Assembly (NCBI GenBank): GCA_015039365.1
Contig: WION01000118.1
Coordinates: forward strand, 82,399-146,398
DNA length: 64,000 nucleotides
Origin: Amanita rubescens
Taxonomy: Eukaryota; Basidiomycota; Agaricomycetes; Agaricales; Amanitaceae
Direction: 5' to 3'
The notes under the pieces were generated by a model that made no database searches, had not been told where the DNA came from, and saw only the letters and a list, made by a program, of their open reading frames with translations. Within the stretch, counting starts at the first letter, position 1; the number at the start of each line of letters is the position of its first letter. Shown in pieces: positions 39,598 through 59,100 of the stretch. The position numbers and the translations under genes are program-made.

Positions 39598-40922
39598 TTG
39601 GAGTGGCGACCATGTGTGGATTCATCGGTCCTCGTCACGGGCGCAAGGCTGAACACAGTTACGCTTGCGTGCCAGCACCACGCCACCTTGGTGAACATTT
39701 ATCTGCCCACCGACCGCGGACAAGTTCTAGCACTCTCCATCCCCTTCAGTGACATCGAGAGGCTCTCCGTCCGCCCTGTCAAATGGCTTCGATTTGTTAC
39801 ATTCGCCATTTGTGGAGTTCGTACCATTATATTCATGAGAGTAATATCTGTCGCTTATCGCTAATATTTTGGTTTACGCCCCTATAGGGGATTATCATCT
39901 CATCGACCACAAAGCAATGAACGATCAAATCACCTCCTCTGAGCAAACGACACGCTCTTCAAGTTTCCGCCGTGATGTCATGGCGCGCGATGGCCCTGTG
40001 TGCGTCTTCACAGGGTCTCATCCCGATGATTGCAATGCAGCACACCTACTCGCCAAAAGCAAGGGCGATGAGGTATGTATCCGTCGTCATTGTTCCGTGT
40101 TACCACCTTGCTAAACGCCCTTCTAGTACATTGCGGTTGTTCTCCAAGATCGTCTCAATTCATACGACTCCGCGGCTCTAGAACCTAATAATCTAGGCAT
40201 TAACTCGGTCGAGAACGGGATGTTTTTGGCCAAGAATCTGCATTCGTCGTTCGTGCACGGGAGAAGGGCTTCTATAAAGGTACGTAAAGTAGACATAAGT
40301 TCCGAAAATTACTGAATCTGGTGATCTCTAGACGCCCAACTTTGCTTTGGACCCCGCCGACATCCCTAGGGTTGAGGCAGGTCCAATGCTGGCCAGTCGC
40401 ATCACATTGCATAATTTGGCACCAGACACTAGCTTCCATCCGATTCTGCAAGGTGACGCGCGCATCACCGGTACGGGCACATCACTGCCATCTACTGTCA
40501 TCCTTGACTACATGTATGGTGTTGCTGCCTATCGGCGCTGGGGCAGTGGACAGGACATCGAGGAAGTGATGGAGCAACGTTTTTCCAAGCACTATAAATC
40601 TATACCTATGCCACCAGCCTCTCCGTACTCAAGTGACAGCGATAGTTTTTCAGAACCTGATGATCCCAACGACGGCAATAGACGACCGAGAAGGAGAAAT
40701 CATAGCGCGAAATTGTCAGATGGAATGCTTCGTGCGATGGACAAGGTCCTTGCGCTCTCCATGTTGCTCAAGGGAACCACTCCTGAAATGATGGCCGCAG
40801 AAAGACAGAGGCGAGAGGAGGCGGAAGAGTTGTGTGCGAAGGAGGCTAGTCGAGTGAAAGTGCAGCAGTGGATGCAAAGCTCTCCGTGCGTTCTCTCTTA
40901 CCTCCGGGCTATTTCCCACTAG
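39598..40922 (+). CDS. HNH_2-type endonuclease-domain protein
   Basis: Exon 1 (from about 39598, true start uncertain) reads TVTLACQHHATLVNIYLP and FSDIERLSVRPVKWLRFVTF. It joins DYHLIDHKAMNDQITSSEQ across an intron of about 60 bp. The HNH core is RRDVMARDGPVCVFTG, CNAAHLLAKSKGDE|YIAVVLQ, then INSVENGMFLAKNLHSSF and HGRRASIKTPNFALDP. This is the pattern of PF13391 proteins that are abundant in Agaricomycetes. The tail is Ser/Asp-rich, then basic (RRPRRRN) and helical. The region upstream of the first exon also reads IWSGDHVWIHRSSSR in another frame, which is typical of the family, so a 1-base shift near 39640 is possible. Function in fungi is unknown. It lies between M2 and the SEC63 fragment. 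Confidence 0.72.
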
Positions 40923-41045
40923 AAGCTGATCTTAGGTCAAACGGAGATAACGTACTCTAGTCAAACGCAGCTAGTGGGCTATTTCTACTTGAAGCTGATC
41001 TTAAGTCAAACGGAAATAACGCTAGTACGCAAAAACGCAGCTATT
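40909..41045 (+). repeat. Tandem duplication of about 66 bp
   Basis: Two adjacent units begin gggctattt(c/t)c and contain gaagctgatctta(g/a)gtcaaa, cgga(g/a)ataacg and aaacgcagcta. The first overlaps the 3' end of the HNH gene, so the stop codon lies inside the repeat. Confidence 0.85.
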
Positions 41046-41075
41046 AAGCATCACGAAAGTCTCCCACCCGAGAAG

Positions 41076-41549
41076 TTACCTATATACGTCCTCGTCATCG
41101 CTCTCTTCTTTATGCTTCTTTACGTTACCGCCACGCATGGCTGCCATCTGGCCGGCCAACGAATCTTCATCTGGGTCCGAGATCTCATCTTCCATCTCGT
41201 CGACGGCAGATACAGGTGCTTCTTCTAATTTCATCTTATGAATGTCGTTAAATAAAAAGTCAAGACTTAAGTAACGACTCGGGGGGCTTACGGTGATATC
41301 TCGCGTCACGTCCCCACCCACAAAGGTGTCGCTGATGACGTACATTTTCCATGTGATTATGCCTACGTTGGGAGGACTTTGGAACTGAATCTTATATGCT
41401 CTGTAATCGTTGGAAATATAATCCTTCTGAGCGTCCGATAACGTGAATTGCGTCACTTCGCCATCCTGGTTCGCTATGTAGTTTGCTTGATTCTTTGTGC
41501 ACCTCCAATTTAAAGTAACCTTATGTTCTACTTCTGCTTCCCTTAGCAC
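41076..41549 (-). pseudogene. 3' fragment of SEC63 (ER translocation subunit)
   Basis: Minus-strand reading gives AEVEHKVTLNWRCTKN, DYRAYKIQFQSPPNVGIITW, then MYVISDTFVGGDVTRDITV. A 66-bp intron (about 41225-41290) follows, then EAPVSAVDEMEDEISDPDED and SLAGQMAAMRGGNVKK with an acidic end. A Brl-domain C-terminus followed by DEISDPDEDxLAGQMAAMRGG is characteristic of fungal SEC63, a partner of the SEC61 channel. The J domain, membrane helices and most of the protein are missing upstream, so this is a stranded 3' piece. The acidic tail is short. Confidence 0.72.
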
Positions 41550-42853
41550 ACTTGCACTGTGTAGTACTTTATATACGATGCATGTATCGATATCTTACCC
41601 GGATCAAGCGGAATATTCTTTCTTCATAAGGAAGTGATAGGCGGCGATAGCACCCGGCATACGTCACGGTACACAGAAACCTCGCTACTGTGCCGTAGTG
41701 AACGGCCTTTCTTCCTTCTTCCTCCACCCCTCAAAAGTCTGGTTCAAATACCTCAGCGCCCAGTCAACTCCCTTTTCTTCTCACTCACCGCTATCCAAAC
41801 GGTATCGTTCTGCCATAGAGCCCCTGAACAAATTATGCGATCTCCCCCCTCCTCGGTCGACCTCACTGAACCCGTTGTCCACAACGTTGCTATCAAGCCT
41901 ACCACCCAGCCGCTCCACATGGTAATCCAGATGAAGTATTTTTGAACGGATATGCACAGACGGGCTGGTTTCCTCTGATGGCGTCACCGCGTCATCTAGA
42001 CCTGCTACGCCCAAGACCCCTCTTCCTGTACTTATTACCTAGATTCCGGTTGAGTTGCTAACCCCGCAACTCCGCATGGATGAGCTGAAGACCAGAGGAT
42101 TGGACTCCTTGAGTATAACACGAAGGTAAGTCTCGCGTCTACCAGATGGCGGCTCTATCGGCTCCTCGAAGCTCAAGTCGGCTTAGCCCCTCTGGACGTT
42201 ACTCCGGGATTTTGACCTAGTCCCAAACGATTGGCCTGCTAGACAACGATATCAGTCGTGTAGGTAATCCACGCTTTGTCTTGATCACTAACCGGAAGGG
42301 CGTCATTCTGAACCCACTACTTACGTAGCGGGAATCACCTCATCTCATCCCAACTACACACACCGCAAATCATGATGATGGAACGTTATTGCTCTGTTTA
42401 TCAATAATTTCGGATGTGGGAAGCTTGACGCCCTTAGTGAGTGTTCGCCGTATCTGACGTGTGACCCAGTCTCCTGCAGCTGGTTCAAGTGAACAATTAC
42501 TTGTAGATAGCAGGCAGATCATCTTGTCGTTTCGTTTCAAGATCCAGGAAAGTCTTGAGCCGGTTTTGATTCCTTTTTCAGTGAGGCCCGAAGGTAAATA
42601 AGGAAGAGTGCAGTTACTGAATGGAACTAAATATAAGCACGACTCACTCTGACCGACAGGACCGACGCGCACAAAGAGCGGAATTGTGCCTGACATAGCA
42701 GACACCGTGACACGATGCCTTGCCAAATTAGGCAGTTGGACCATATCATATTGTACTTCTCCTACTACAACTCCAGGCACTGACCTTCTTAGTTTATCAA
42801 TTTCATGATTACAAATGCAACGCGAGCGCTAAACTTCTTTCTCACCAACCAAC
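41550..42853. other. Intergenic region with unassigned frames before gene C
   Basis: At 42370-42780 a minus frame of 136 codons (for example VQLPNLARHRVTVSAMSGT) is not recognised. At about 42047-42130 a plus segment reads IPVELLTPQLRMDELKTRGL and ends in a good donor (gtaagt). It may be a gene fragment. The right end carries the conserved AGCGCTAAAC element of gene C (42825-42834). Confidence 0.35.
42825..42834 (+). promoter_or_regulatory. Conserved upstream motif of gene C
   Basis: AGCGCTAAAC lies 19 bp before the start codon, with the same spacing and a following pyrimidine-rich stretch as in A and D. Confidence 0.5.
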
Positions 42854-45800
42854 ATGCAATCTCCCTCAGGCAGGCCTGAGCCGCACCGCAGCGACCCGCT
42901 GCATATCCGCGATGCAAATTTTGTGCCTACTCCAGATCTAAATGCTAAGGAATGCCCAAGGTAATGTACATTGAGCGATCAATGAAATTTATCCCAAAAT
43001 TCATGTACTGTAGGTTCCGTATCCTTATCGTTGGTCGAGTAAGGCTTGTTGGCGTTTTCACTACCTGCTCCATTTACGGACTTTCTTCAACAGACTGGCA
43101 CAGGGAGATCGTCACTTATTCATGCCACGTTCAAAACTCCTCTGGCGGTATGCGCTGTTTTATGGTTGTTTTTCAGCCATTCATCGACATTTAGAATGCT
43201 GGTGTCGCAAATGTCAACGAAGAGATCAAGTCGGCAAACAACAAATACCTAATCCTTCATGATTCTCAGGGTTACGAGCCGGGGAACGTCGAGAAATTCC
43301 AAATCTTAGAGGAATTTATCACAGAGAGGTGTCAAAAGAAGGATATTGCGAAGAAGCTTCATGCTATCTGGTGTGTTCGCCGACCAAAGAGAAAAACCAA
43401 CTGATATTACCTCGCAGGTTGTGTATTGATGCGTCTTATGCTGGTGGTCAGATATTTGAAAAGGGCGACGAAAGAATTTTCGAGCTGAATCGAAACGAAG
43501 GTAACTACCAATTGCTATCCTTATTCTAAGCTGATCGTGACATCAGTGCCGATCATCGTCGTGTTTACAAAGTTTGACCTATTTTTAACGGCATTGCACA
43601 AGCGGGGGGAGGCCAAGGATCTGATTAGTCTGGAGTTCGCCGAGAAAATTTTCAAGAAGAAACATGGGCCAGTATTCGACAAGTTAACCAAGAACGTTGG
43701 AGGAGCAATACCATACGCTCTTGTGTCAAGTACGCTTGTACCCGGTGGCTCTTATTTCTGTATTAGTTAACATTAGCACGCAGTCCGGATGCCCGAAACT
43801 TTGAAACGACTGGTCAAAATCACGATGAAAAGTATACGTGCCAAGACACCGACTTTATTCAGTAGGATCGTGCGCATTAGAGGCGCTTTATTCAATAGGT
43901 CTATTAAACGAGTTCATGCAAGAAGAGAAAATCAAGATCTAGCAGAACTTGCTTTTGCAAGGGCACAACGTGTTGATACGGATGCCAGGATTGCCGCATC
44001 AATCGAGTAAGCTCCCATATCCGGAAATGAATAGACTTAACATTTGGGTTCTTATTACAGAGTAGCGAAAAAGGGTAAGTTGTATCTATAATCTGTTGTC
44101 GTCTATGTTGTGTATTCTTACATCAATCCAAGGACATTGGAGAACAATAGTAGCGGGCATACGCCTTCTCAATGTTAGCCTTCAAGAGTATCTATATACG
44201 ATACATAAAGGCATTATCAGGTCCTGGACTTCCAATGAGGTGTGTACAATGGTGTATCCTAGATATGCTGTTAAATCTATTCTATGACCATAGTTTTTTA
44301 TTACGGATTCAGCCCATCACCGGATGATGGTTCTCGTGGGCGATCTCAATCGTCAGAATATCAGTGCGACGTGCGTGGATAGGAAACGTTGACGAATAGC
44401 CGAGCTAATAGTAGTCACCACAGGCAGAGTAAGACAGCTATAGCTTTGGTAGGGGCGGCGCTAACGAAGCTATGGAGGAAAGGCGTTTACCAACAACGGT
44501 GAGTAGCGTCATTCATCATACCAGCAGAAGTGATAGATTTCTCAACAGACCTGAGCATATGCGCTGTCTCATGGGCTACGTAGTGGATCTTACGCTTATC
44601 CAGCAAGCCATATTTCCTGCTTCACTTCAGCATCTTATCGAAGAAAAAGACTTAAAAGACCGCGTAAATGAAATCATATATGAGTTTTGTTGCTCGGGAA
44701 AGAAGGATGATATACACACCGAAATTCGGGAATTTGTCGCTACTCAGGACTGGCACTCAGAGATTAACGTGGTAAACAAGATCGAGTCGCTGATAAAGGC
44801 AAATAAGGTGTGGCATTTGCATCTCGCTGTCATCTTATTGTTAAACGAGTGTCTCCCCTGCAGATTGACATCCGATTAGACCGAAAGAGGGATCCATTCG
44901 CATCATTGCTTATAATCCTGAGATTCGAGGTGCGAGATTCCAAGGCAACACGTTACACGATATCATTGTTCATGATTACCAGTTGATTGCGAAGGGTCTG
45001 ACGATAAATAAAACTATTCTTGACCTTGTTCGCGAACTGTTGAATTTACCAGACTGCGACGCTAGTATTGTTTCCAGCGTGAAGAATATTTCAGACGTCG
45101 AGCTGTTACTTGATTTCTTCCTCTTTGTAAGTACACCTTCGTGCTTGACATCATTGCTTACTCTTTCTAGTTACTACGCAATGATAACTTGTCAAATTCT
45201 GGCATTCAAAATGCCAAGCGAAAAACAAGAAGTCTGATGTTCAAGCTGTTGTGCAAGGCAGATGTCGGGCCAAGAACTTTGATGATTACTGGTATTAGTT
45301 ATACGGGTCCTAGTACTGGCACCGGAGACCCTAAACAAGTTTTCGAGGGCAAACACCAAGGACAGCAGATCACGCTGACGGCGCTGCGTAAAACTCGCCT
45401 TGAAGATGTAAGTGTATTTTCAGATTCGCTCCTCAAGACGTTGATTTGTCTGGTCAGGATATATTCGGAAAAAGATTCCATAAGCAGGCTCTAGAATGGA
45501 AATCGCTTGAGCATAGTTTTGTCCTCCCCCTGCTGGGAATATTTGAGCAGGATCCTTCACGCCTATTTTTTGTGTCGCCGTCGATGATAAACGGAACATT
45601 GACTCAATGGAGGAAAATGAAAAACCCTTGTGTAGCCGTGGTGCAGACGCGGGTAATGCATCAACATACTTATCAACATAACATTGCTGACATTCGCTAG
45701 ATACTGGAGGTAGCCAAAGGGATTCAGTACATCCACGCGGAAGGGATTGTTCATGGTGACTTGCGCGGGGTAAGTATTAATAAAACATTTCATCACTTAA

Positions 45801-47756
45801 CTCTTATCTTCATAAACCAGGAAAATGTCCTGCTCGACTCTGACTTCCACTGTCGAATCGCCAACTTTGGATTAGCGCAAGCTTCCGACTCCAACTTTCC
45901 ACCACAATCAACCACGACACTTGATTCAAGCGATCCGAGCCCCGAACAATCTGGCATAGTCGATGAAAGACCAAGAGATGTGCATGCGTTCGGTTGCCTT
46001 TACTATGAAGTAAGTGCCCTGAAATCTGCAGCGCACTTGACAGTGACTGTTCTAGGTATTTTTCGATGTTATGCCTTCCCAAGTGCAAAACGGATCCCAA
46101 AGTGGACGACTTGGCACAGGCGAGGAACATCTTGACCAGTCGGACACTCGGACAATGGACGACAAAATTTTGGAACTTATCAATAATTGTCGGATGAGCA
46201 ATCCTTCAGAGCGACCGACAATGGAGCACGTTGTGACGATGCATATGAGATTCACTCCTCTCCCGGCCTTGCTTGCGACGCTCTGTGAAGTATGTGTTCC
46301 GGGGTCACTCCAACTTGATGCCGCTAATAACTGCTAGTTAACGATGCTCGGGCGCTCGATCGTCAATGAGACTACCCTCCGTCTTATTGACGAAATTTTG
46401 AATCTAGCTGAACTAAATACTAAGGTTACCGAACTAAAAATTGAGTCAGACGTAGGGTTGTTGCTTGATTTTGTTCTCCGCGTCTGTATAATCTCTGTTC
46501 AGCGCACTTGCTCTATTGATCATTTATTCCATCTAGCTAATCCGCAATGGTAACCTGACAAACTTGGGCATCCAGGATGCAAATCGGATAGCCAGAAAGC
46601 TGCTGTTCAAGCTAGCATCTATGATAAATACAATACCAAAGTCTCTGTTTATTACGGACGTCAAAATGCATCATGAAACTATTGGTTCCGGCGGCTTTGG
46701 TCGTGTTTTCAGAGGCGAATACGAAGGATTGCAAGCAGCACTGAAAGTGGTGGACAGAGGTCGTTACGACGTGGGTGCATTGCTATTTCTCTCCGTACAA
46801 TAGATCTTGATTCATTTTGATAAGGATTCGCTCAAAAAAGACATCTGTCGGGAAGCCATAGCATGGCGATCGCTTACACACCGTTTTATACTCCCTCTTT
46901 GGGGAATATTCGAAGAGAAATCGCAGTTGTACCTCGTATCACCACTCATGACAAATGGGACTTTGAATCATTGGCAACAGAAGCAGAAGAGAGATGTAAC
47001 TGAGATACGCAGGCTGGTAATACTCCTGTCATTATCAAAGTGGTAGAACAAATTTGCTGATGTTGGTTAGATGCTAGAGGTAGCTGAGGGCGTTCGGCAT
47101 CTCCATTCGGAAGGAATTGTCCATGGTGATCTGCATGGAGTGAGTACCTTGCTACTGTGCACCCTCGTCGATTCATCCCGTTATCCATCAGCGGAATATT
47201 CTCCTCGATCCACAATTCCACTGCAAAATCACTGATTTTGGATCAACCCAACATCACGAGGTCACCGTTACACGTTCCACTGCAGCTCTTTCTATAGATT
47301 TCTCAGCGCCTGAACTATTTGGCGCATGCACTTTGTGTGGCGTGTCTGATAACAAGGACTGTCATGGCAATCAAGATGAAAAGACGATACGCAAAACTAA
47401 GGAAACTGACGTTTACGCATTTGGTTGCCTTTATTATGCCGTCAGTTTCTGATTTATTTCTTCTTACCTTATTTAGCACATTGAACAATGATCTGCAGAC
47501 ATTCTTTGATGCTCATTTGTTTCCTGGGAAAAGTGAATATCAAATTATGCGACTCGTTATAGAAGGAGGACGCCCTAAACGATTGGAAAAGCCAAAAATG
47601 GCAGACAACACATGGGAACTCATCCAAAGTTGTTGGCGACCTATTCCTTCTAAGCGTCCGAAGATGGAAGAAATAGTGACGGCATTGACTTTGTTTGCCG
47701 AGCTCACCACGAAGCAAAGAGTGCGTCAACTATATACACCAAGAATTGATTTATAA
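42854..47756 (+). CDS. GTPase-tandem-kinase protein C (P-loop Lys replaced by Arg)
   Basis: Starts MQSPSGRPEPHRSDPLHIRD. The G domain reads RILIVGR|TGTGRSSLIHATFK, so the invariant Walker-A lysine is Arg (codon 43106-43108). G3 HDSQGYEPGN and G4 VFTKFDLF are kept. The helical region is LMGYVVDLTLIQQAIF. Kinase 1 (about 45180-46270) is degenerate: STGTGDPKQVFEGK for the Gly loop, ITLTAL (Lys lost), IANFGLA for DFG and no APE motif. Kinase 2 (about 46550-47690) has GSGGFGRVFRG, AALKVV, VHGDLHG, TDFGST and APELFGACTLCG, so it is probably active. It is more diverged from A, B, D than they are from each other. The stop at 47756 may be bypassed by splicing into M3, which begins 14 bp later; the phases fit poorly. 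Confidence 0.72.
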
Positions 47757-47769
47757 CTAGTATTAGACC

Positions 47770-48989
47770 TCAGCGGGGCTCGTAATCGTGCCAGAAGAGA
47801 AACGCCAGCGTATGTCGAAGGATCTATATGATTTGTTGCCTAGTCGTCTCCCGCCCAAATACCAGCTAGATGGGAAAGTCCAGTGGCCGGGCGAAGTGCC
47901 TACGAGGCGCGGGAAGAATGTCGACTCGAATATGTACAAGGGAAGACTCCAGGGCCAAGATGTGAAAATTAAGATCATCTCCTTGGTCAATCCGAATGAT
48001 GAGAACGGAGTAATAGTACGTTCCTTGGCACTTTGGACCCGAAACTCTACAGTAACATGCATACCTTCAGAGGATTAAACGTGAAGTTGAGCTGTTAGCA
48101 AAGATAAATGAAATGGATCAGGGAAAGCATATTATACCATTTTGTGGTTATTACTCCCCCGACGGCCTTCGTCTGTAAGTGTGCTCAGCAACATCATCCA
48201 TTGTGCTTCTTGCCGATGTCATATCAGTGCCCTGGTTTTGCCATGGATGGAAAACGGAGATGCGTTGGCGTATGTCAAGAAGCACAAGTATATTGACTAT
48301 AAAAGCCTGGTTTGTTTCCTTTTTATTTTCGTGGTTGTCAATCGATTGTGTGGTCGTAGATCGTTGGAATTGCTCAAGGAATGAAAGTCCTCCACTCTAT
48401 GGATCCACCTATAATACATGGAAATTTCAGAGCAGTTCGTGTCTTATTGCTCAAGGACCCGAAGGAGAGCGCTAATCCTATCGTAAGGAAAAGGTATTTA
48501 TCGGAGATGAGGGTCAACCACTAATCTCGGACTTTGCGCTTGCCAAGGTACGTAACGTCAAGCTACGCTCGTTTTTATCTAAACCTCTTCATCATAGTTT
48601 GATGGGAACTTGATTACCCAAGTCATTCACGTGTCGGACAACTGTCGATGGAGTGCACCAGAGATGTTCGAAGAACAAGCTACTGTGTCGGCCAAGTGCG
48701 ATATCTATAGCTTTGGTATGACTATTCTGCAGGTTGGCTCGACTCCTTTGGACCCGAGACAAGGATACTGAATTTAGCCCAGTTGTTTACGCATGAGAAA
48801 CCTTACACCAACAAGAAAACTGCTCAGGTCTTTTCCGAGAAGCAGACGGGTGAGCTTCCCGACCGTCCGCAAGACGAGCGTGTCGTCAGCCGCGGATTGG
48901 ATGACAGAATATGGAAGCTTCTCTGCCAATGCTGGTCCAAGAATCCAACAGACAGACCTTCGATTGAGGAGCTTTTAGCAGAGTTTTGA
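47770..48989 (+). CDS. MLKL-like pseudokinase M3, lacking the N-terminal bundle
   Basis: The first exon starts after an acceptor (cctcag) with GLVIVPEEKRQRMSKDLYDLL, equivalent to the kinase exon of M2 and M4. The first ATG in frame is 47812. It keeps VKIKII, PFCGYYSPDGLRL and NGDALAYVKKHKY, and has IIHGNFRA (Asn codon 48423-48425), SDFALAK, APEMFEEQ, CDIYSFGMTIL and DRPSIEELLAEF. No helical-bundle exons occur between the end of gene C and this exon. Either M3 is an orphaned 3' part, or it is spliced to gene C as a third, dead kinase. Catalytically inactive by motif. Confidence 0.62.
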
Positions 48990-50696
48990 CATTTATTGAC
49001 ATGGCTAGTCAGGATACCAGAGTTCTACTTGTACGATTGAGAATGCGTAATCAACGTGGATGTGTTCTATAGTTCTGTTAAGACAACCGAGTGCAGCCGG
49101 GAGCTAATACCTTCTCGGTCGGAAAAGGGAGTGACGATTCCTATATGCGTCCGTTCTCGTCGATCAGTTTCTACCGAAGACCTCATGAAGGAAGATGCCA
49201 AACTTCGTAATCGTTCAGCCCTCGCATTCACGGTTCCCTCCCAAACAGACGGAGATTTGGGTCAAACAACCCAACTGACCCTACTTTGGCAAACCAGGTA
49301 AGCCCTTCGGAGAGTTACGGCGCTCGAGCGTCCAACAAGAACTGCAACGAGAGGTCGAGCGAGGCATGAATTGCTAGCAGTGGATGCGCTCGCCGGAAAA
49401 TCAGGGAGTTTTACGTGGACATTAAAACGAGCCAGAGGTCAGGAGCAGGTAACATGTAGGTGACGAATGTCACGGAGGAAGATCAGGAGAGCGGAGTCTA
49501 GAATGGAGGAGAGGGACTTCAGAATTCACGAGGGTGGAATTTTTCGCTGATGAGAGGCGAGGTGAGAGGACGATAAACGGCGCTTGGCGAACGCACACGC
49601 TCCTTTTCCGACAAAACAGTCCTGTTGATCCCCCAGTCGTATAGTTAACGCACTGTTTGCATTATCATAAGATCACCGTTTCATGTATACAAAGTCTTTT
49701 CACACGCGAGGTGGTCTGGAGGATCATCAGTGATACATCCTTTTGGAACCTAGGTACTCACAGTGAATAGCGTGAGCAGTGGCGGAGAAAGTAGAAGCCT
49801 GAGGCGCGGACGTGGTATGGCGGATGAGTCATAGAATCATAGAACAGAAATTGAACGTTGTTTACTACTATTATCGGCACACCGAAGTAATGAAAATGAC
49901 GAGGGGACGACTTTCCAAAGGCGGGTAGCATCTTGGTCAATGACGAGAAGCTCTAGGGTGTTATGCTGTTACTACATTAGTATTACAGTAATAGGGTTAG
50001 ACTCAACACAATGACGCAATCGTCCGAGTCGAATGATGCCTGACAACCGACTCTAGGGTAAGGGTTAAGGCTTGCAGCGGCATCCAGGCAACGACAATTG
50101 ACCTGAACATGTCCCGATGGTGACTCGCCGCCCGCTCAGGACCTCGAAAGCTTCTGCTACTTAAAGATTTGCACATTTGTCCACAAGTCTCTCGATCAGG
50201 CTAAGAGTCATAGCGTTCCTGTAGACAAACAGACATGTGAGGATAAATACGGGGAAGTTCACAATGAGGAATGATACGAACTTGTTTTGAGGACACTACT
50301 GTCACATAAGATGATGACCCGGGTGCAGGGGGAAGGCGGGACCCAGGCCTGGGATCAGTGATGGCGGTTGTAGCGACCTGGATCGACCATAGAAGGCCTG
50401 ACACGTGGCGGGTTTAGAATCATAACACAAAACGTGAACGTTGTTTATTATTGGCACAGAAACAGGCAACGAAGATGCATATGACGAGCGTCGACTTTCA
50501 AAAGGGATTTACGATAGTGGAGCCGAAATAGCAACCGAGCGCATTGCCGGATTAGGAAATGATGAACATGTATACTCATACCAATCGAAGCTGGGCCGGC
50601 GCCTATCGATCACAAGCTAAACCAGCACCACGCAGCGCAAACGTGGGGTATTCTCAGGATCATATTCGCATTTTGCCTTAGGTTTCTTGGTCGGCT
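48990..50696. other. Intergenic region with a repeated block before M4
   Basis: No gene was recognised. A block at about 49800-49930 (agaatcatagaacagaaatt, gaacgttgtttactact, ggcacaccgaag) recurs at about 50412-50520 (agaatcataacacaaaacgt, gaacgttgtttattatt). A purine-rich stretch near 49555-49595 resembles 2075-2160. Confidence 0.5.
49800..50520 (+). repeat. Direct repeat of about 120 bp, two copies
   Basis: Copies at about 49810-49930 and 50412-50520 share atagaatcata-acacaaa, gaacgttgttta(c/t)ta and cgactttc(c/a)aaaggc-type stretches. Both are non-coding and lie before M4. Confidence 0.65.
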
Positions 50697-53600
50697 ATGC
50701 CATTAGGCTCTTGTTTCTCGGCTATTTTCAGATGGGGGCCGACGCGCAAGGTCAAGTTTGCTTCACCCGTCATGTCAAGCGTAGGGCCTGCCTCAGCTCT
50801 TCTGGCTGCCATCGTCGACCTATCTGAGAAGGTACCTCAAAATAGGTCTGTACAATCTCGCACAGTGCAAATTTACTCGAGTCTCACACTCTTTGCAGGA
50901 ATGCTGCTCGCCGGCTGTCTGATAGGTGTCAATACCTGCACAATACCCTAAATCAATATGAAAAGAAACACCTTTCTGCTGATCATACGGGTCGATTTCA
51001 GGATACGGTGTCCAAGTTGGTCATTGGTTCTTCAATGATGAATTAACTGACCTACTGCTGCGTGTAGATGTCTTAACCAGGTCAAGGATGCGATGCAAAA
51101 ATGGTCAGAAAAAAGCTGGATTGAGATGTTGGTGCATCGAGGCGAATTTCAGGCCGAATTCAATGATTGTGATACTGCGATCGCCAATTGTCTTACGATC
51201 TTCTATGTCAGTGCGCTCAGATTGTTCGTGACATAACGGGAATTTATCTCCAACAATTTATCAGACTATTTCACGGATGGTTGCGTCGGCAATCTGGAAA
51301 GAAAACGAAAAATGGACAAGGGATCTAAAAGAGAGCCTGGATGCCGACCACAAGGCTATTATGGAACAGCTCGCCGCTGCTGATTTCATACAACGAGTGA
51401 CAGAGAGCAAGGTCTTGGAGGGCCAGAATGACATAAAGGGGATTTTGGTGATGATGCAAAAGGTACGTGAACTGTACACGTGGAGGCTTGGATTGCTTAA
51501 TATACGCGATTAGGGCCTAGCGGAACACAAGGTCGTGTCTGATGAGGGACGCAAGCGTATAGCCAAGAATCTATATAGGTTGCTTCAGTTGTCGAATCTG
51601 GTCCCACCCGAATGTCAGCTGGACTCCGGAGAGATTGAGTGGTCTGGAGAAGTTCCCATTGATGGCGGCAACAAAAACGTTGATATGTACAAGGGTCTAT
51701 ATCTCCAAAGCGAGGACGTGAGGATCAAGGTCATCCGCTCTGTCAATATGAAGGACGAGAATACGGTCAAGGTATACCTTCCTAACGCTGAGACCTACCT
51801 CGCTTGTGACTCAAAATGCTTTCAGAGGATAAGACGCGAGGTCGAACTGTGGTCAGAGATTTACGCAGTGGACAAGGGAAAACACGTTATACCATTCCAT
51901 GGTTTTTACAGCCCCGATGGCATTCGTCTGTGAGCGTTCTTGGGAATGTTATACAACGCCCCTTATGCTAATGTTTCTGCCAGTGCGTTGGTTAGCCCAT
52001 GGGTTGATAACGGAAATGCTTTAGCATATGTCATGAAAAACGACAACGTTCTCGATTATAAAAAGCTGGTACATTGCCTTGCCTACTTTTCACGCCGAGT
52101 CTAATTGCATCAGTAGATTGTCGGCATTGCAGCAGGGATCAAAGTCCTGCACTCTGTGAAACCTCCCATTATCCACGGAAATTTGAGAGCAGTCCGTGTC
52201 GTTGTTCATCAGTGACATAATAAATCATTGATCTCTTCGCCAGGAAAAGGTACTTATCAGCGATCAGGGCCAACCACTAATCACGGACTTTGCGCTTGCC
52301 AAGGCATGTTTTCGCGATCTGTTTTCATACGTATTGCTAATCTTATTGTTGAAGATTGAAGGGAATCTGATCACCCAAACCACTGGTGAATCCGAAAGTT
52401 GTAGGTGGTGTGCACCAGAGATGCTTGAAGAAAAGGCCATTGTGTCAACCAAGGGTGATGTCTACAGCTTTGGCATGACAATTCTCCAGGTTAGGCTCAG
52501 TTCCTTCTACTTTTTGTCTAAGATGCTCAACTCTTCTCAGTTGCATACACATGAGATGCCATACGTTAATATCAACAAAGCCTTTCACGTGTATTCTAAG
52601 AAGCGGGAGGGTGACGGGCTACCCGATCGCCCGCAGGATGAGCGTGTCGTCAAGCGTGGGTTGGATGAAGGAATGTGGGGGCTTCTTTGCCTCTGCTGGT
52701 CCAGGGACGCGGAGCACAGACCTTCAATTAATGAGTTGGAGATGAAACTGTTGAAACCGGCTGAGCAGTTGCCTCATGAATCTTTAACCGGGAAAGGGCT
52801 GGTCGTGGAGGATGATGCAAAACTGTTGAAATCCGCGGAACAGCCGCTTCAGGAACCGATCACAGTTTTGGTAGGGAACACGCTGGGAGTTGAGGACAAT
52901 TTCGGCGGTGAGAATCACAGAAATGGCGCTGATGAACTGACGGCGAAGCTTTCGGAAGGCCACGTTACTATACATGGATCCATCAAGTCGTCGTTTGCAG
53001 CAAATAGCGAGATAGATACAAGCAAGTCATCGAATAAGGTTGGAGTTCATATCTTAATGTCAAGTCAATCGCTGATCGTATATCTCCCGCACTGCGTTAG
53101 ATGGAGACGATCAATGATATCCAACTTAACCAAAAGAAACTTCTGACGTTTACTTGCATCTCATTATTACTTGCAACCCTAAGCGAGGTGTGCACTGGCA
53201 CATCTGAGGCGCTAACACCCCCCACTGATATGGGCAATGACTAGTTAAAGGCGCTCGGTAAATCTCCAGTTACTGAGGTCACCCTACATCATGCACGCGA
53301 ACTATTGGATCTACCAGATTTTTCTGCTATTCAAATTCCATCCGAAACATGGAGTAGTTCAAATGTCAAGCTATTACTTGATTTCATCCTTTATGTACGC
53401 TGTTTCATTTGAATTTTTGTCTGTCTTGACCTTCCGCCATGTAGTTGTTCCATGAAGATAGGTTAATGAATTTCGGTATTCAAGACGCAACTCAAAGGGC
53501 CAGACAGCTGATGCTCAAGCTGACATTGACGGAAGTCATGCCTGAGTCCTTATTTATTACTGGCATTAAGAAGGATGCTAAGCTGTTCGCTGTGGGGGGC

Positions 53601-54612
53601 TTTGGACGTGTTTTTAGAGGCGATTACAAGGGGAAGCAAGTAGCGCTCAAGATGGTGGACAAAGGCCGTAAAGATGTTACCCCATAATCATTCTTTTTCT
53701 TGCCAAGTGCTGATTAGTTTGGTAAGGGCTCACTCAGACAAGACTTCTGTCGCGAAGCATTAGTGTGGAGATCACTCTCCCACCGTTTTATCCTCCCTCT
53801 ACTAGGGATATTTGAAGATGAATCAGAGTTATACCTCGTGTCACCGTTTATGACAAACGAAACATTAAGACAATGGAGAAACAAGCAAACTCCCACAACA
53901 GCTGATCTACATAAGATGGTAAGGTTACCGTAACAGTGGTTATCAGAACTGTCAAACGATATCGATAATACTCTTTAGATGCTAGAGGTGGCTGAGGGTG
54001 TTCAGTACATTCATTCCGAAGGGATCGTGCACGGCGACTTACATGGAGTAAGAGTTTTGACATCCGATGCTCCCCAATCAGTTCATCTCATCCTCGACCA
54101 GGGAAATGTCCTTCTTGACTCCAATCTTAGCTGCAAAATCACTGATTTTGGTTCAAGTCGACATTTTGAAACAGTCATTTCGCGATCCACAAGAGCGCTG
54201 GTTATAAATTTTGCTGCACCTGAGCTATTGGGTTTGTGCATCAAGTGTGGCCAGTCCCAGTGCAGCAGATGCTATGAAGGTGACGAGAAGGAGCCTACGG
54301 GCAAAACGATGGAAACCGACGTTTACGCATTCGGCTGTCTTTATTATGAGGTGCGTTTCAGGTTCTCCCTCGCTTATGCAGCACATTGAGCGACTGGTGA
54401 CACAGATATTCTTTAATACCGTTCCCTTTCATAAGTCTAACTACGTTCAAGTCATACAACTTGTCGCAAGGGGAGAACGCGCAAGTCAGTTACAAAGCCC
54501 AAAAATGGGAGATAACACGTGGAATCTCATTCAGAGCTGTTGGAAATCCGTTCCTTCTAAACGTCCGAAGATGAAAGAAATAGTAGAGGTGCTGCCAACT
54601 CTACTTGCATAG
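50697..54612 (+). CDS. Fusion protein M4: MLKL-like bundle, pseudokinase, then intact kinase
   Basis: The start is 50697, or 50772 (MSSVGPASALLAAIVDLSEK). The bundle continues NAARRLSDRCQYLHNTLNQYE-like, CLNQVKDAMQKWSEKSW and NDCDTAIANCLTIF. The brace and kinase exon GLAEHKVVSDEGRKRIAKNL lead to a pseudokinase with IIHGNLRA (Asn codon 52180-52182) and DFALAKIEG (DFA 52286-52294), ending RPSINELEMKLL. A linker of about 100 residues repeats KLLKPAEQLP/KLLKSAEQPL. Exons at 53101 (METINDIQLNQKKLL) and 53246 (LKALGKSPVTEV) give the same linker that separates modules in A-E. The second kinase (about 53460-54612) has VGGFGRVFRG, VALK, VHGDLHG, TDFGSSR, APELLG and a Cys-rich insert. It ends MKEIVEVLPTLLA. 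All joins stay in frame. Confidence 0.72.
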
Positions 54613-54929
54613 AGCGTGTCTATGATGTGTTGTGTGACATTGCAGGTCGTCATTGCTGCAATTGTAAAGTAGTACACATGTACGCTAGTCTGATATCCCC
54701 AACTATGAAGTGTAGCATTTTACAGGAAAGTATAATCGCCGTGCTGCTGGAGTCAATGGTTGATAGTGATATCGTCGCTTCCATATCCGTACCATAACGC
54801 CGAAAGAGACTCGAGTCACAACAGACCGCTTTTCTCGGGACAATACCCCTTCACGTTCCGGTTCCATAACGGAGGCCTAGATCAATTCATCTACTTCCGC
54901 CCGTTCAACTGATGAAAAGATGCACCCCT
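54613..54929. other. Intergenic region after M4
   Basis: I see no gene or repeat. Confidence 0.4.
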
Positions 54930-55620
54930 GATTGTAGACAGTCCGACGTACTAGTCTGGCAGTGGGAGGTGGGTCCGGCGTGATCATTTGGTTATAGATA
55001 GGAAGCAGAAGCAGAATCCACGCATATATCCATTTCTTGGTAGAGACTACTCGCTTGATGTACAAGATCATGTGCACCAGTTGAATTCACAAGTCGAGTT
55101 TGAGAAAAAAGGGAGCTGCGACGCACGAGCTCCAAGAGTTGTTGAACAGACCAGTCGAATTTATAAGAAAGGAACGTTCAAAAATTGAGAGCGTTGTTTT
55201 TTTATACTCGATGGAGGAGGATGTCTTGCATCAGCGCACGTTGAATAACTTTCTAGTGTGAGCGGGTCGATAAGAAGCTATTGAAGGAATAGTCAACACA
55301 AATGGCAACCTGGCTTTGGTAGGACCCACTGGACTCTTCGTCCGCGCTTACCCGAAAGCAACTTCATAATCTGCCCGAGTGCGCGCCCTGGACGATGCAG
55401 GTCGGTCGTAGAAAGCTTGGTTGTGAGAGGCGAGCTACAACGGTATCAGTATGTCTACCATCTGGTACCAACATTGAAGGAAAACTTACAACACATGAAC
55501 GTAGCTTCACGGTGCTTCAAACGCTTTCCCGAGTCTCGACTCTCGCTTACCCTCTCCCCGCCTACCTGTCACATGTAAACCCATCCCTGGTCTTCAAGCA
55601 CCGATGCCACATCTGCAGAC
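54930..55620 (-). pseudogene. Relic of PEX3, 3' half, before gene D
   Basis: On the plus strand, 55020-55170 aligns with 17860-18010 inside PEX3 (atgtgcaccagttg-attcac, gttgttraaca), and 55390-55540 aligns with 18330-18460 (ttggttgtgagagg, cagtatgtctacc against cagcatatatcc, cttcaaac then ccctctcccc). Order and orientation match PEX3 on the minus strand. Every reading frame is broken. It marks PEX3-side DNA carried along when the gene A locus was duplicated. Confidence 0.65.
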
Positions 55621-56140
55621 CCGGAAATTTCATGTTGAATTGCCGTACGAGGATATCTGTAACTTAGAAATTGCTGGCGTTCTCTCCGTGCGGCACTGGC
55701 CAATTTGGAGGTCAGGCGGAGTATGAATGGGTGAGTCCCGAGCTCGTGACTTGGACGCGTAAATTTTTGAAATGGGACGCGCTACGTCATAAATAGCCAC
55801 CGAACTACCTCTTTTCTTGCCATCCAACGCGATCAGTTTCCTCTACTCGAGTCATTGCAGAAACACAATGTACACACCAGAATTATTACCGCGTACTCAA
55901 ACATTATCGAGTGCGCATATTCCATGTCAGATGCTCATGCATCGTGGTTTCGCCTAAATCTGAATAGGAAGAATTCGGTATGCCTTGTCTGTTACTTGTG
56001 TAATGCCTAAACATCATCCGACGTCCTTGTCGATGCGCACCTTGACTTGGAAGTTGGTCGGTCATAATCAATTCGTTCGCCTGGCGTTTATCCAACTGCG
56101 GCATGACTTTGGGCGCTAAACCTTCTTCTCACCGCCTGTC
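55621..56140. other. Upstream region of gene D
   Basis: No gene was seen. It carries the GGGCGCTAAAC motif at its right end. Confidence 0.45.
56111..56121 (+). promoter_or_regulatory. Conserved upstream motif GGGCGCTAAAC of gene D
   Basis: Identical to the element before gene A and at the same distance from the start codon (about 20 bp). Confidence 0.55.
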
Positions 56141-59100
56141 ATGGATGCCCCTCAGGCATCCATGTCCTCTCCCTCTGCCATCGAGAGAACCCTTATACCT
56201 ACGACGGATGAGATTGCGGAGGAATGTCCAAGGTCACGTCAATCAAGCCACAGATGATATCCAGCTGAATATAAATACAGGTCTCGGATCCTTATCGTTG
56301 GACGTGTAAGTCTTGTTGCCGTTCCGCCTGCGTGTTTAATTCATGGACCTCTACCCTTTCGTAGTCAGGTGTCGGGAAGTCGTCGCTTATCAAAGCTATA
56401 TTCAAGGTTGATCTGGCGGTATACTGGAATCTGTCACGATTGCTCTTCAGCAGCTCAATGGCACTTACTAGGATGGCCGACATTTTGGGGCTGGCTCGGC
56501 CAATATTAGCGAAGGAATTACGTCGCCTCACAACAAACACCTCATCATACACGACTCAGAATGTTATGAGCCAGGAGACGAACAAAAATTCCGTATTTTG
56601 GAGGAATTTATCGCGGAGCGAAGTCTGAAGGAATCCATTGCCGAGAGACTCCATGCAATTTGGTGGGCTCATGATAATGCGAATCAATCAATCAATTCAT
56701 ATTATTCGACAGGTTGTGCATTGCTGCGCCTTGCGTTGGTGACCCAATATTCCAAACATGGGATGAGAGGATTTTTAGTTCAAATCAACGCAAAGGCAAC
56801 TCTCCGAGATTCCTATACACACTAGCTTTGGCTGATCGTGATAACAGTACCGATAATCGTCGTGTACACAAAATTTGACATTTTCATACAGAACAACTTG
56901 CTCGAAGGAGGGGACAGCACAACGAGGTCTAATTGTAGTTTGGATTCTGCCGAGAGGCGTTTCAGTGAGAAATACGACGAATTGTTCCGGGAATCCACGA
57001 GGAACATTGGGGGTGAGATACCATACACTGTTGTGACAAGTAGGTTCGCAATTTAGGTTGCTTCGCCCGCTTTGATGTGTGCATGTAGGTTCAATGCAAC
57101 GAACCTTGCAGCGACTGGTCGAATTGACGATGAAAAACATTGCCAAGTCTCCGAGCATCTCGAGTGGTCTTGCGCTCGGTATGAAGCATTACTTTAATGG
57201 AAATCCTGATTAATCAGTTGACAGGGCAAGTGGAAGATTCCTTGGATGCAACACAAATTACCTTTGCTACGGCGCAGCGTATTGATACGTCAGGTAAGAT
57301 TGATGCATCAATAAAGTAAGTTTCTATCAGGAAGTGGGATAGGACTGGCGTCTTACTATTTTTATAGAGTCGGGAAAAAGAGTAAATTGAGCCCGTAGTT
57401 TGTTTTCAACCCCCTCACTTTGATTTCCAGAGTATTGGAGAGCGATAGCATCTGGGATACACTTTCTCAATTTTAGCCTTAAAAAGTGCTTAGATGTGAT
57501 ACACAAAGACCTTGTTTCTATATGGAATATCCGGGACATGGACGAGGTGCGCGCAAAGGAGTGTCTTGAATATGCTATTCATCACGACTTGATAGTTCCT
57601 TCTCGGTGATGCATTCTCTCGCCAGATGCTGGTTTTCGCGGGTGATCTCATTCATCAGGACCAGGGGAATGACAGCGCACTGTAAGTGAATATAGCACGT
57701 TGGTAGGCATTTACACAATTGACGACTGTTGCAAGGCAAGGCAAGGCAACGATGGCAGCGGCAGCAGGGGGACCAACTTCGAATCTGTGGGCCAGCGGTA
57801 TTTTCAAGAGATGGTGAGCATATACCGGCTCTTTATCACAGCACATGTTAACATCTGAACAGGCCCGAACACGTCCGTTGTATGATGGGCTATGTAGTGG
57901 ACCTCACGCTTATCCTACAAGCCGTGTTCCTAGTTTCTCTTCAAGATTATTCCAAAGGCAAAGTTACACCGGATCTCATAAACGAAGTCATCTACGAGTT
58001 TCATTTGTCGGACAAGAAAAAACGCATTCATGACGCAATACGGGATTTTCCGAAGCCCTCGCTTTCCAAGGGTGATGTAGTGGATAAAATCGAGTCATTA
58101 ATAAAGGAAAACGAGGTGTGAAATTTCTATTTCCGCCTGAGCTCGTGACTAATCGTGTCTTCGACAATAAAACATTACAGATGACGAAGAATGACACAAA
58201 ATTTGACCAAAATAGATCTACACTTCCATCATTGCTTAGAATACTTAAGTTCGAGGTGGGGACTGCTGAAGTATCGCCGCGCCGTCACTGACAACTACTA
58301 GCAAAGCGCTAATGGCCTGATAGTAAATCAGATGATCCTTGATCTTACGTGCAAACTGTTCAATTCACCGGACTACGACACGATTGTCGCTGAAATGAGG
58401 GATCCTTTTGATGGCGAGTTATTGATTGATTTCAACCTTCTTGTACGTATCACCTTTATCCCTTGTTTTACCTCCTTACCTATTCCATAGTTACTCCAAA
58501 CCAACAGCCTATTAGATTCTGGCAATGAAGATGGCAACCGTAAAGCCAGGACGTTGATGCTCAATCTGCTAAAGAAGGCAAACGTTATACCCAAATCTCT
58601 TTTTATCGCGGACATCAAGATTGATATAGAACAAGGCATGATCAATATCGGAGGTTTTGGGCGTGTATTCCTAGGCAAATACAAAGGAGAGTTAGTCGCA
58701 CTAAAGTTACTGGGAAAAGGCCTTAAAGACGTTAGTATTGCGCTTTTCCCTCCTCACCATACTGATTCTTTGTAAGGGCAAGTTCAGTCAAGAACTCGTT
58801 CTGGAAGTCCTAGCGCGGCGATCGCTCTCACACCCTTTTGTTCTCCCCTTACTCGGAATATTCATAGATAGGTCCCTGCCATATTTTGTGTCGCCGCACA
58901 TGAAAATTTCATTAACTGAATGGCGAAAGACACATACACCAACCGTACCTGAGATAAATAGGCTGGTGAGACTTCAGCGATTGCCACGAGAGTTTGATGG
59001 TTCTATCATTGATCAGGTACAGGAGGTGGCCGCGGGCGTTCGGTACTTTCACGAAGAAGGAATTGTGCATGGAGATTTGCGCGGAGTGCGTATTTTAATA

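Follow-up and report, generated by a model that had tools for sequence, protein, structure and literature searches.

Animals split the MLKL-like executioner and its activating kinase between two proteins. The M4 locus of Amanita rubescens raises the question whether the two functions can be joined in one gene. The initial annotation of this DNA had proposed that M4 fuses a helix bundle, a pseudokinase and an active-looking kinase. This proposal is borne out by an open frame of 18 exons that recurs in four distinct copies, and the presence of all three parts in one gene is well supported at the DNA level. We consider it highly probable that M4 is one fused gene. The function of its predicted product is a separate matter that is discussed below.

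Gene model and genomic neighbourhood

The window, i.e. the whole stretch of DNA analysed here, comprises 64,000 nucleotides (C22:82399-146398) of the 75.7 Mb genome. The spliced model of M4 has 18 exons (50697-54612) with a coding sequence of 3012 bp that ends in a stop at 54612 and encodes 1003 amino acids. Splice sites were picked by the open frame and by agreement among the copies. The 17 introns of the C22 copy are 42-62 bp long, 16 being of the GT..AG type and one of the GC..AG type (donor 52304). This GC donor is GT in C6, and the donor of exon 7 is GC in both C74 and C6.

The order of the domains is an MLKL-type bundle, a pseudokinase (HGN, DFA), a linker and a second kinase (VALK, HGD, DFG), and all of these elements were found where the initial annotation had placed them. 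When the whole protein was compared with Pfam, two kinase stretches were recovered; among the 11 families matched at E<=1 there was no MMR_HSR1 GTPase, FERM or SH2 domain.

When the window was searched in translation with parts of M4, bundle-pseudokinase genes were found at ~27.5-25.8 kb on the minus strand (M1) and at ~37.8-39.5 kb (M2), as well as M4 itself at 50.7-53.0 kb. M3 (~47.8-49.0 kb) is a pseudokinase gene to which no bundle match was found in this search, and it shows a joint of the reverse order. Kinase units were located near 23.1, 24.5, 31.7, 33.0, 34.5 and 36.0 kb, and further ones near 45.5, 46.6, 53.4, 58.5 and 59.9 kb, so that kinase units and bundle-pseudokinase genes are interleaved across the window.

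The helix bundle and the pseudokinase

The first half of M4 consists of the following features:

50697..51462, + strand: exons 1-4, MLKL_N-type helix bundle and brace, residues 1-201 (Pfam MLKL_N, splice model)
51514..52750, + strand: exons 5-11 (part), pseudokinase, residues 202-510, with HGN and DFA and no glycine loop (PF07714, E 2.5e-27)
52751..53038, + strand: tail to the end of exon 11, residues 511-606, 96 residues (alignment of copies)

The similarity of the bundle to MLKL_N lies close to the Pfam cut-off of 27 bits. A chance similarity was considered and rejected, since with exon 1 included the bundle alone (176 residues) scores 30.6 bits and the whole protein 27.0 bits (E 3.7e-6, just at the cut-off); the score without exon 1 is 20.1 bits, i.e. 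under the cut-off. MLKL_N was matched at E<=1 by 9 out of 11 bundle sequences scanned. A profile built from 11 bundles had a single match at E<=10 among 177,635 PDB sequences, namely mouse MLKL (4btf, E 0.054), which would be weak on its own. The bundle-pseudokinase profile gave 2096 PDB matches; no MLKL is among the best 60, which match via the kinase part (e.g. EGFR, TNNI3K, RAF and RIPK4 chains).

In terms of the usual kinase motifs (HRD, DFG, glycine loop, beta-3 Lys), the pseudokinase has HGN in place of HRD and DFA in place of DFG, no glycine loop is seen, and the beta-3 Lys is kept. HGN and DFA are present in all four copies of M4. About 200 bp of the tail (52751..53038) are missing from the other fused copies in the alignment. 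The initial annotation had given the linker as about 100 residues. This holds for the tail only, and not for the distance from the end of the pseudokinase to the glycine loop of the second kinase, which is ~220 residues in the C22 copy and ~155 in the other copies.

The joint, the linker and the second kinase

The features on the other side of the joint are:

53039..53100, + strand: joint intron, 62 bp, donor GTTGGA, acceptor TTAG, CTGAT branch-like motif (alignment of copies)
53101..53187, + strand: joint exon 12, METINDIQ...ATLSE (alignment, splice models of copies)
53245..53394, + strand: linker exon 13, LKALGKSPV..., common to A-E type kinases (linker profile, E 3.7e-29)
53445..54612, + strand: exons 14-18, kinase with GGFGRVF, VALK, HGDLHGGN and DFG (PF07714, E 1.6e-43)

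The GT donor, the TTAG acceptor and the CTGAT motif of the joint intron are aligned in all four copies. The donor at 53039 is weak, reading GTTGGA, GTTCAA or GTTGAA among the copies; a comparable donor, GTTACC, is used by exon 14 in 4 out of 4 copies. The joint intron is 62, 62, 62 and 53 bp long in the four copies (differences from C22: 0, -9, 0), and these lengths by themselves do not discriminate between an intron and an exon.

The joining exons had been described as the same as those between the modules of A-E. A profile built from nine linkers preceding A-E type kinases, tested on 20 proteins (E-values are for 20 targets), agrees with this: it matched all four M4 copies (E 4e-30 to 3.7e-29) and, in the same set, none of the 14 unfused proteins. 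It also matched P0005 (E 1.6e-26) and P0135 (E 3.6e-4, partial).

The motifs VALK, HGDLHGGN and DFG are present in the kinase of all four copies. In the window search this kinase matched the neighbouring A-E kinases with E-values down to 5e-95 vs 7e-7 at best for the pseudokinases. The acceptor AG of exon 15 in C22 is missing in C74, C6 and C129; these three copies have an AG in frame 9 bp downstream.

Copies of M4 and selection

Four distinct copies of M4 were found (C22, C74, C6 and C129). C1 is identical to the window over 49717-56112 and 54650-58400, and C1 and C22 were counted as one. The kinase half (52942-54612) is 86-88% identical in C74, C6 and C129 and 100% in C1. In C74, C6 and C129 it immediately follows a pseudokinase whose similarity to that of M4 is only ~70%.

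The exons run through the joint in frame in all four copies. C22, C6 and C129 have an uninterrupted frame up to the stop; C74 has a frameshift caused by the loss of 1 bp in exon 18. Since the architecture recurs in four distinct copies and is open to the stop in three of them, it is above chance. The exons and introns differ in length in distinct ways: 12 out of 51 exon comparisons with C22 showed a length difference, one of which was not a multiple of three, as against 34 out of 48 intron comparisons, 30 of which were not multiples of three (exons 1-3 of C6 were read in a separate stretch and left out of these counts).

dN/dS was calculated by the Nei-Gojobori method for six pairs. The values were 0.28-0.40 for the bundle (represented in C6 by exon 4 only, 66 codons), 0.23-0.43 for pseudokinase exons 5-10 and 0.16-0.30 for kinase exons 14-17; the dS of the kinase was 0.24-0.27 in 5 out of 6 pairs. 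Around the joint the values were 0.32-0.87 for exon 11, 0.26-0.87 for exon 12 and 0.15-0.66 for exons 12 and 13 together. In the 32 codons that immediately precede the joint dN was 0.09-0.28 and dS 0.10-0.28, with dN exceeding dS in 3 out of 6 pairs. Because of these 32 codons and of exon 11, coding directly beside the joint is supported by the frame and not by selection.

Sequence exchange and a second fusion

The relation of M4 to its relatives changes along the gene. Identity was scanned in 150-bp windows against the fused copies C74 and C129 and three copies of the unfused M5, and one feature emerged:

51300..52940, + strand: tract closer to unfused M5 than to two other fused copies, probable gene conversion (150-bp identity scan)

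Before ~51.3 kb M4 is nearest to the fused copies (C74 85-91%, C129 74-90%, M5 56-72%). From ~51.3 to 52.94 kb it is nearest to M5 (86-98%, the last window 76%) and shares 56-84% with the fused copies. Beyond ~52.94 kb the fused copies are again nearest, with 85-96% vs 35-54% for M5. M5 terminates in a stop (...VQAIAC*) in 5 out of 5 copies, of which those on C334 and C74 look alike. In other words, ~1.6 kb comprising the brace and the pseudokinase were probably swapped in from an unfused M5-like relative, the frame into the kinase being kept and the M5 stop dropped. The conversion reading is drawn from the identity values and not from a formal recombination test. Given that M5 has a stop at its end, and that M4 is nearest to M5 within the tract but to the fused copies on both sides of it, the fused gene probably predates the exchange. 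As for the origin of M4 itself, a bundle-pseudokinase part was most likely placed before a linker-kinase part, replacing the GTPase part.

Another locus shows a related arrangement. P0005 of A. rubescens, deposited as one protein of 783 residues, joins an MLKL-type pseudokinase to the A-E linker, and its locus is present on four contigs (C1, C334, C74 and C6). In the three of these four loci that were read, the DNA behind it encodes another kinase-like stretch, in which HGN is seen and an N-lobe is not clearly recognisable. Judged from their DNA, fusions of a dead kinase with a following kinase thus appear at at least two loci, M4 and that of P0005, and of the two only M4 has complete catalytic motifs. 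As the C-terminal kinase of the P0005 locus reads HGN and lacks a clear N-lobe, an active kinase would not be a general feature of such fusions.

One gene or two

The joint might also be the boundary between two adjacent genes; the first, encoding bundle and pseudokinase, would then end near 53146 and the second, encoding the kinase, would start near 53101. A deposited partial protein from C22, P0122, reads through 53039 and ends exactly at 53146; we found no other deposited model that covers the M4 joint. The frame beyond 53038 is open to the 53146 stop in all four copies, exon 12 starts with ATG in C22, unfused relatives (M5 and M1) exist, and the lengths of the joint intron are compatible with either reading. 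The end near 53146, which the initial annotation had named as speaking against a fusion, therefore does occur in a deposited protein. However, P0122 also translates two introns that lie within the kinase fold (52304-52354 and 52490-52540). In 13 aligned relatives these inserts are absent, except that P0129 has 3 additional residues at the first position, and P0122 is in our view a poor automatic gene model. Moreover, when the joint intron is read as coding, each pair differs by 0-1 synonymous and 3-8 non-synonymous changes, a pattern that shows no purifying selection. A separate kinase gene from about 53100 is likewise disfavoured: the ATG at 53101 is a Thr codon in C74, C6 and C129 (ACG, ACG and ACA), these copies are without any in-frame ATG in exons 12-13, and the codon directly upstream of exon 12 is an in-frame stop in 4 out of 4 copies. 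Just ~140-160 bp separate the pseudokinase from exon 12 in the same three copies. In P0240 (A. rubescens, MTIKDTQFDQ...) and P0241 (A. brunnescens, ITIDDTQFDQ...) the homologue of exon 12 follows the GTPase-helical part, and exon 12 is therefore an internal exon in the GTPase-kinase family. Taken together, two adjacent genes are improbable.

The fusion might instead have arisen by unequal exchange within a rapidly changing tandem array and, whether or not it is transcribed, have no function of its own. The conversion mosaic in M4, the reverse-order joint of M3, the degenerate last kinase of the second fusion, the frameshift in C74 and the fact that selection is not visible right at the joint are all in line with such an origin. 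On the other hand, dN/dS is below 0.45 in the bundle and in pseudokinase exons 5-10 and lower still in the kinase, the kinase dS is nearly uniform among the pairs, and three of the four copies are intact. We regard a functionless fusion as very improbable. The preferred reading is that of one fused gene, in which a conserved frame joins two halves that both retain their domains and motifs and are both under selection.

A possible single-chain switch

If M4 is one fused gene, its protein is reasonably likely to be a self-activating death switch; for the explanation as a whole, i.e. one gene and one protein acting as a single-chain cell-death switch, we would put the chances somewhat above even. 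In mammals it is established that RIPK3 phosphorylates the MLKL pseudokinase and thereby frees the bundle, as described in the portions available of PMC12881547. In M4 the pseudokinase and the brace would restrain the bundle, the attached kinase would phosphorylate the pseudokinase or the brace, in cis or between the chains of an oligomer, and the released bundle would then damage the plasma membrane. In this scheme the production of the spliced transcript, the activity of the kinase, its action on the pseudokinase of M4 itself and the killing by the bundle are all inferred.

The same fused gene could work differently: the bundle would act as a sensor or as a scaffold and the output would come from the kinase, as in plant tandem-kinase resistance proteins and without direct membrane killing. 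For Pm13, in which an MLKL_NTD is joined to a predicted active kinase, the available text of its authors allows for either a killing or a sensing role (PMC10951266). Related proteins carry a GTPase in the position of the bundle and pseudokinase, and the pseudokinase cassette looks swapped, as would be expected of a recognition part. Against this, the bundle reaches or exceeds the MLKL_N cut-off and its dN/dS indicates purifying selection, and we consider this reading unlikely. An extension of the death switch goes further: M4 might be a self-contained necroptosis machine, with a RIPK3-like activator and an MLKL-like executioner on one chain, whose pseudokinase cassettes are exchanged in a multi-allelic cluster, and a mismatch between alleles or with GTPase-kinase partners would lead to cell death as at fungal incompatibility loci. 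This is a tentative idea, and a doubtful one.

Returning to the single-chain switch, the fusion links the two families physically, as had been claimed, with a bundle-pseudokinase and an A-E linker-kinase in one frame. By inference, the bundle-pseudokinase and GTPase-kinase families may share a pathway, and the neighbouring GTPase-kinases might likewise act in trans on M1, M2 and M5. In A. brunnescens the GTPase-kinase-kinase AX14_000496 and the bundle-pseudokinase AX14_000497 have consecutive tags and lie on contigs of equal length (39,608), which would fit phosphorylation in trans. If the M4 protein is made, both halves of a necroptosis-like pathway, the activating kinase and the MLKL-like executioner, can share one chain, and there is a direct reason to ask whether neighbouring GTPase-kinases activate neighbouring MLKL-like proteins in mushrooms. 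The fusion points to a candidate family of activating kinases for fungal MLKL-like pseudokinases that is testable in a single construct.

Searches for the same fusion

The initial annotation had also raised the possibility of the same fusion in related fungi. Among the protein-database matches listed (the best 120 of 132 for whole M4, the best 120 of 124 for the bundle-pseudokinase and 6 for the C129 joint) 28 sequences were examined, and none of them combines a bundle, a pseudokinase and a complete kinase; the searches with whole M4 and with the bundle-pseudokinase scored the 8000 candidates sharing most words, and this result is no proof of absence. The nearest cases among the 28 are P0005, with a pseudokinase and the linker, and P0135, with a pseudokinase and a partial linker. 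None of the titles and opening lines of abstracts listed from the literature outside subscription papers describes a bundle-pseudokinase-kinase protein, and no such three-part protein appears in the portions available of PMC12881547, PMC10197012, PMC10951266, PMC11476962 and PMC8778642.

Comparison with known systems

M4 shares with vertebrate MLKL and with the MLKL-like proteins of fungi and plants an N-terminal MLKL_N bundle, brace-like helices and a pseudokinase that lacks the HRD Asp and the DFG Gly. In MLKL the pseudokinase is the last domain and the switching kinase, RIPK3, is a separate protein, whereas M4 adds a second, complete kinase of another subfamily. M4 is thus MLKL-like in its first half and not an MLKL, since the linker and the kinase follow in frame in every copy. 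The second half has its counterpart in the GTPase(MMR_HSR1)-linker-kinase proteins of the A-E type in Amanita (P0240, P0241 and P0001), which have the linker, the kinase and the joint exon in common with M4. These proteins have an MMR_HSR1 GTPase and a helical part where M4 has the bundle and the pseudokinase.

In JAK the JH2 pseudokinase precedes the JH1 kinase, and FERM and SH2 domains stand before both. The likeness to JH2-JH1 that had been suggested for M4 holds for the domain order of pseudokinase before kinase. It does not go further: unlike JAK, M4 has no FERM or SH2 match, it has a separate linker domain, and its pseudokinase and kinase match different subfamilies. A JAK-like origin beyond the domain order was rejected because of the missing FERM and SH2 matches and the two different subfamilies; in addition, the pseudokinase accompanies the bundle, as it does in MLKL.

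In plants, Pm13 of wild wheat, according to the available text, combines an MLKL_NTD with a kinase in which all key residues are present (PMC10951266), i.e. it has a bundle and an active-looking kinase on one chain, as M4 does. The wheat tandem kinases (WTK) share with M4 the tandem of kinase and pseudokinase. Unlike M4, neither Pm13 nor WTK, as described in the parts available, has bundle, pseudokinase and kinase together. Compared by architecture only, M4 belongs with the tandem kinase and kinase fusion proteins, which have a kinase and a pseudokinase on one chain. The HeLo/HELL proteins of fungi are joined to kinase or pseudokinase domains, and the text available on them names no pseudokinase-kinase pair behind the bundle. 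Proteins with a bundle and a kinase or a bundle and a pseudokinase are known in animals, in plants and, according to the available part of a review, in fungi. As far as these sources go, such pairs are known already, and what is new in M4 is that all three parts are on one chain.

Divergence of the copies

The copies of M4 (50697-54612), the proposed fusion of an MLKL-like bundle, a pseudokinase, a linker and a complete kinase, differ in the kinase by a synonymous divergence (dS) of 0.24-0.27, with the C74-C6 pair at 0.085. A dS of 0.24-0.27 is high for alleles of a single species, and the copies may be either balanced alleles of long standing or old paralogues. The similarity also changes along the region: the window contig, C22, is 99% alike with C74 at 39.8-44.2 kb and 100% alike with C1 at 49.7-58.4 kb, and the stretches of C74 compared with C22 within the latter interval are 88-93% alike. 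Judged from these alignments, the copies of 39600-58400 (C22 against contigs C1, C74, C129 and C6) are mosaic, which reflects either true recombination among deep haplotypes or assembly switching between haplotypes. At about 39822-41012, adjoining the neighbouring gene M2, there is a dispersed repeat, probably a mobile element, with more than 10 further genomic sites at 78-95%.

The M4 intron 52304-52354 is GC-AG in C22, C74 and C129 and GT-AG in C6; the deposited partial model, P0122, leaves it in and reads through.

Domain order and related loci

M3 (46555-48974), in which a bundle match is absent, can be read from its sequence as kinase followed by pseudokinase, i.e. in the opposite order to M4. 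The joint would be a 46-bp intron (47721-47766, GTGCGT..TTAG), alignable in all four copies; splicing would keep the frame from kinase to pseudokinase, and without it a stop within the intron terminates the kinase.

A second fusion is seen at four loci (L059-L062, on C1, C334, C74 and C6), on C1 as follows:

about 338.0-340.8 kb, minus strand, pseudokinase-linker-kinase

Its front corresponds to the deposited protein P0005, and its C-terminal kinase, as read at three of the four loci, carries HGN and shows no distinct N-lobe.

In a second species, Amanita brunnescens, the GTPase-kinase and bundle-pseudokinase families look adjacent: AX14_000496 (GTPase-kinase-kinase) and AX14_000497 (bundle-pseudokinase) have consecutive tags.
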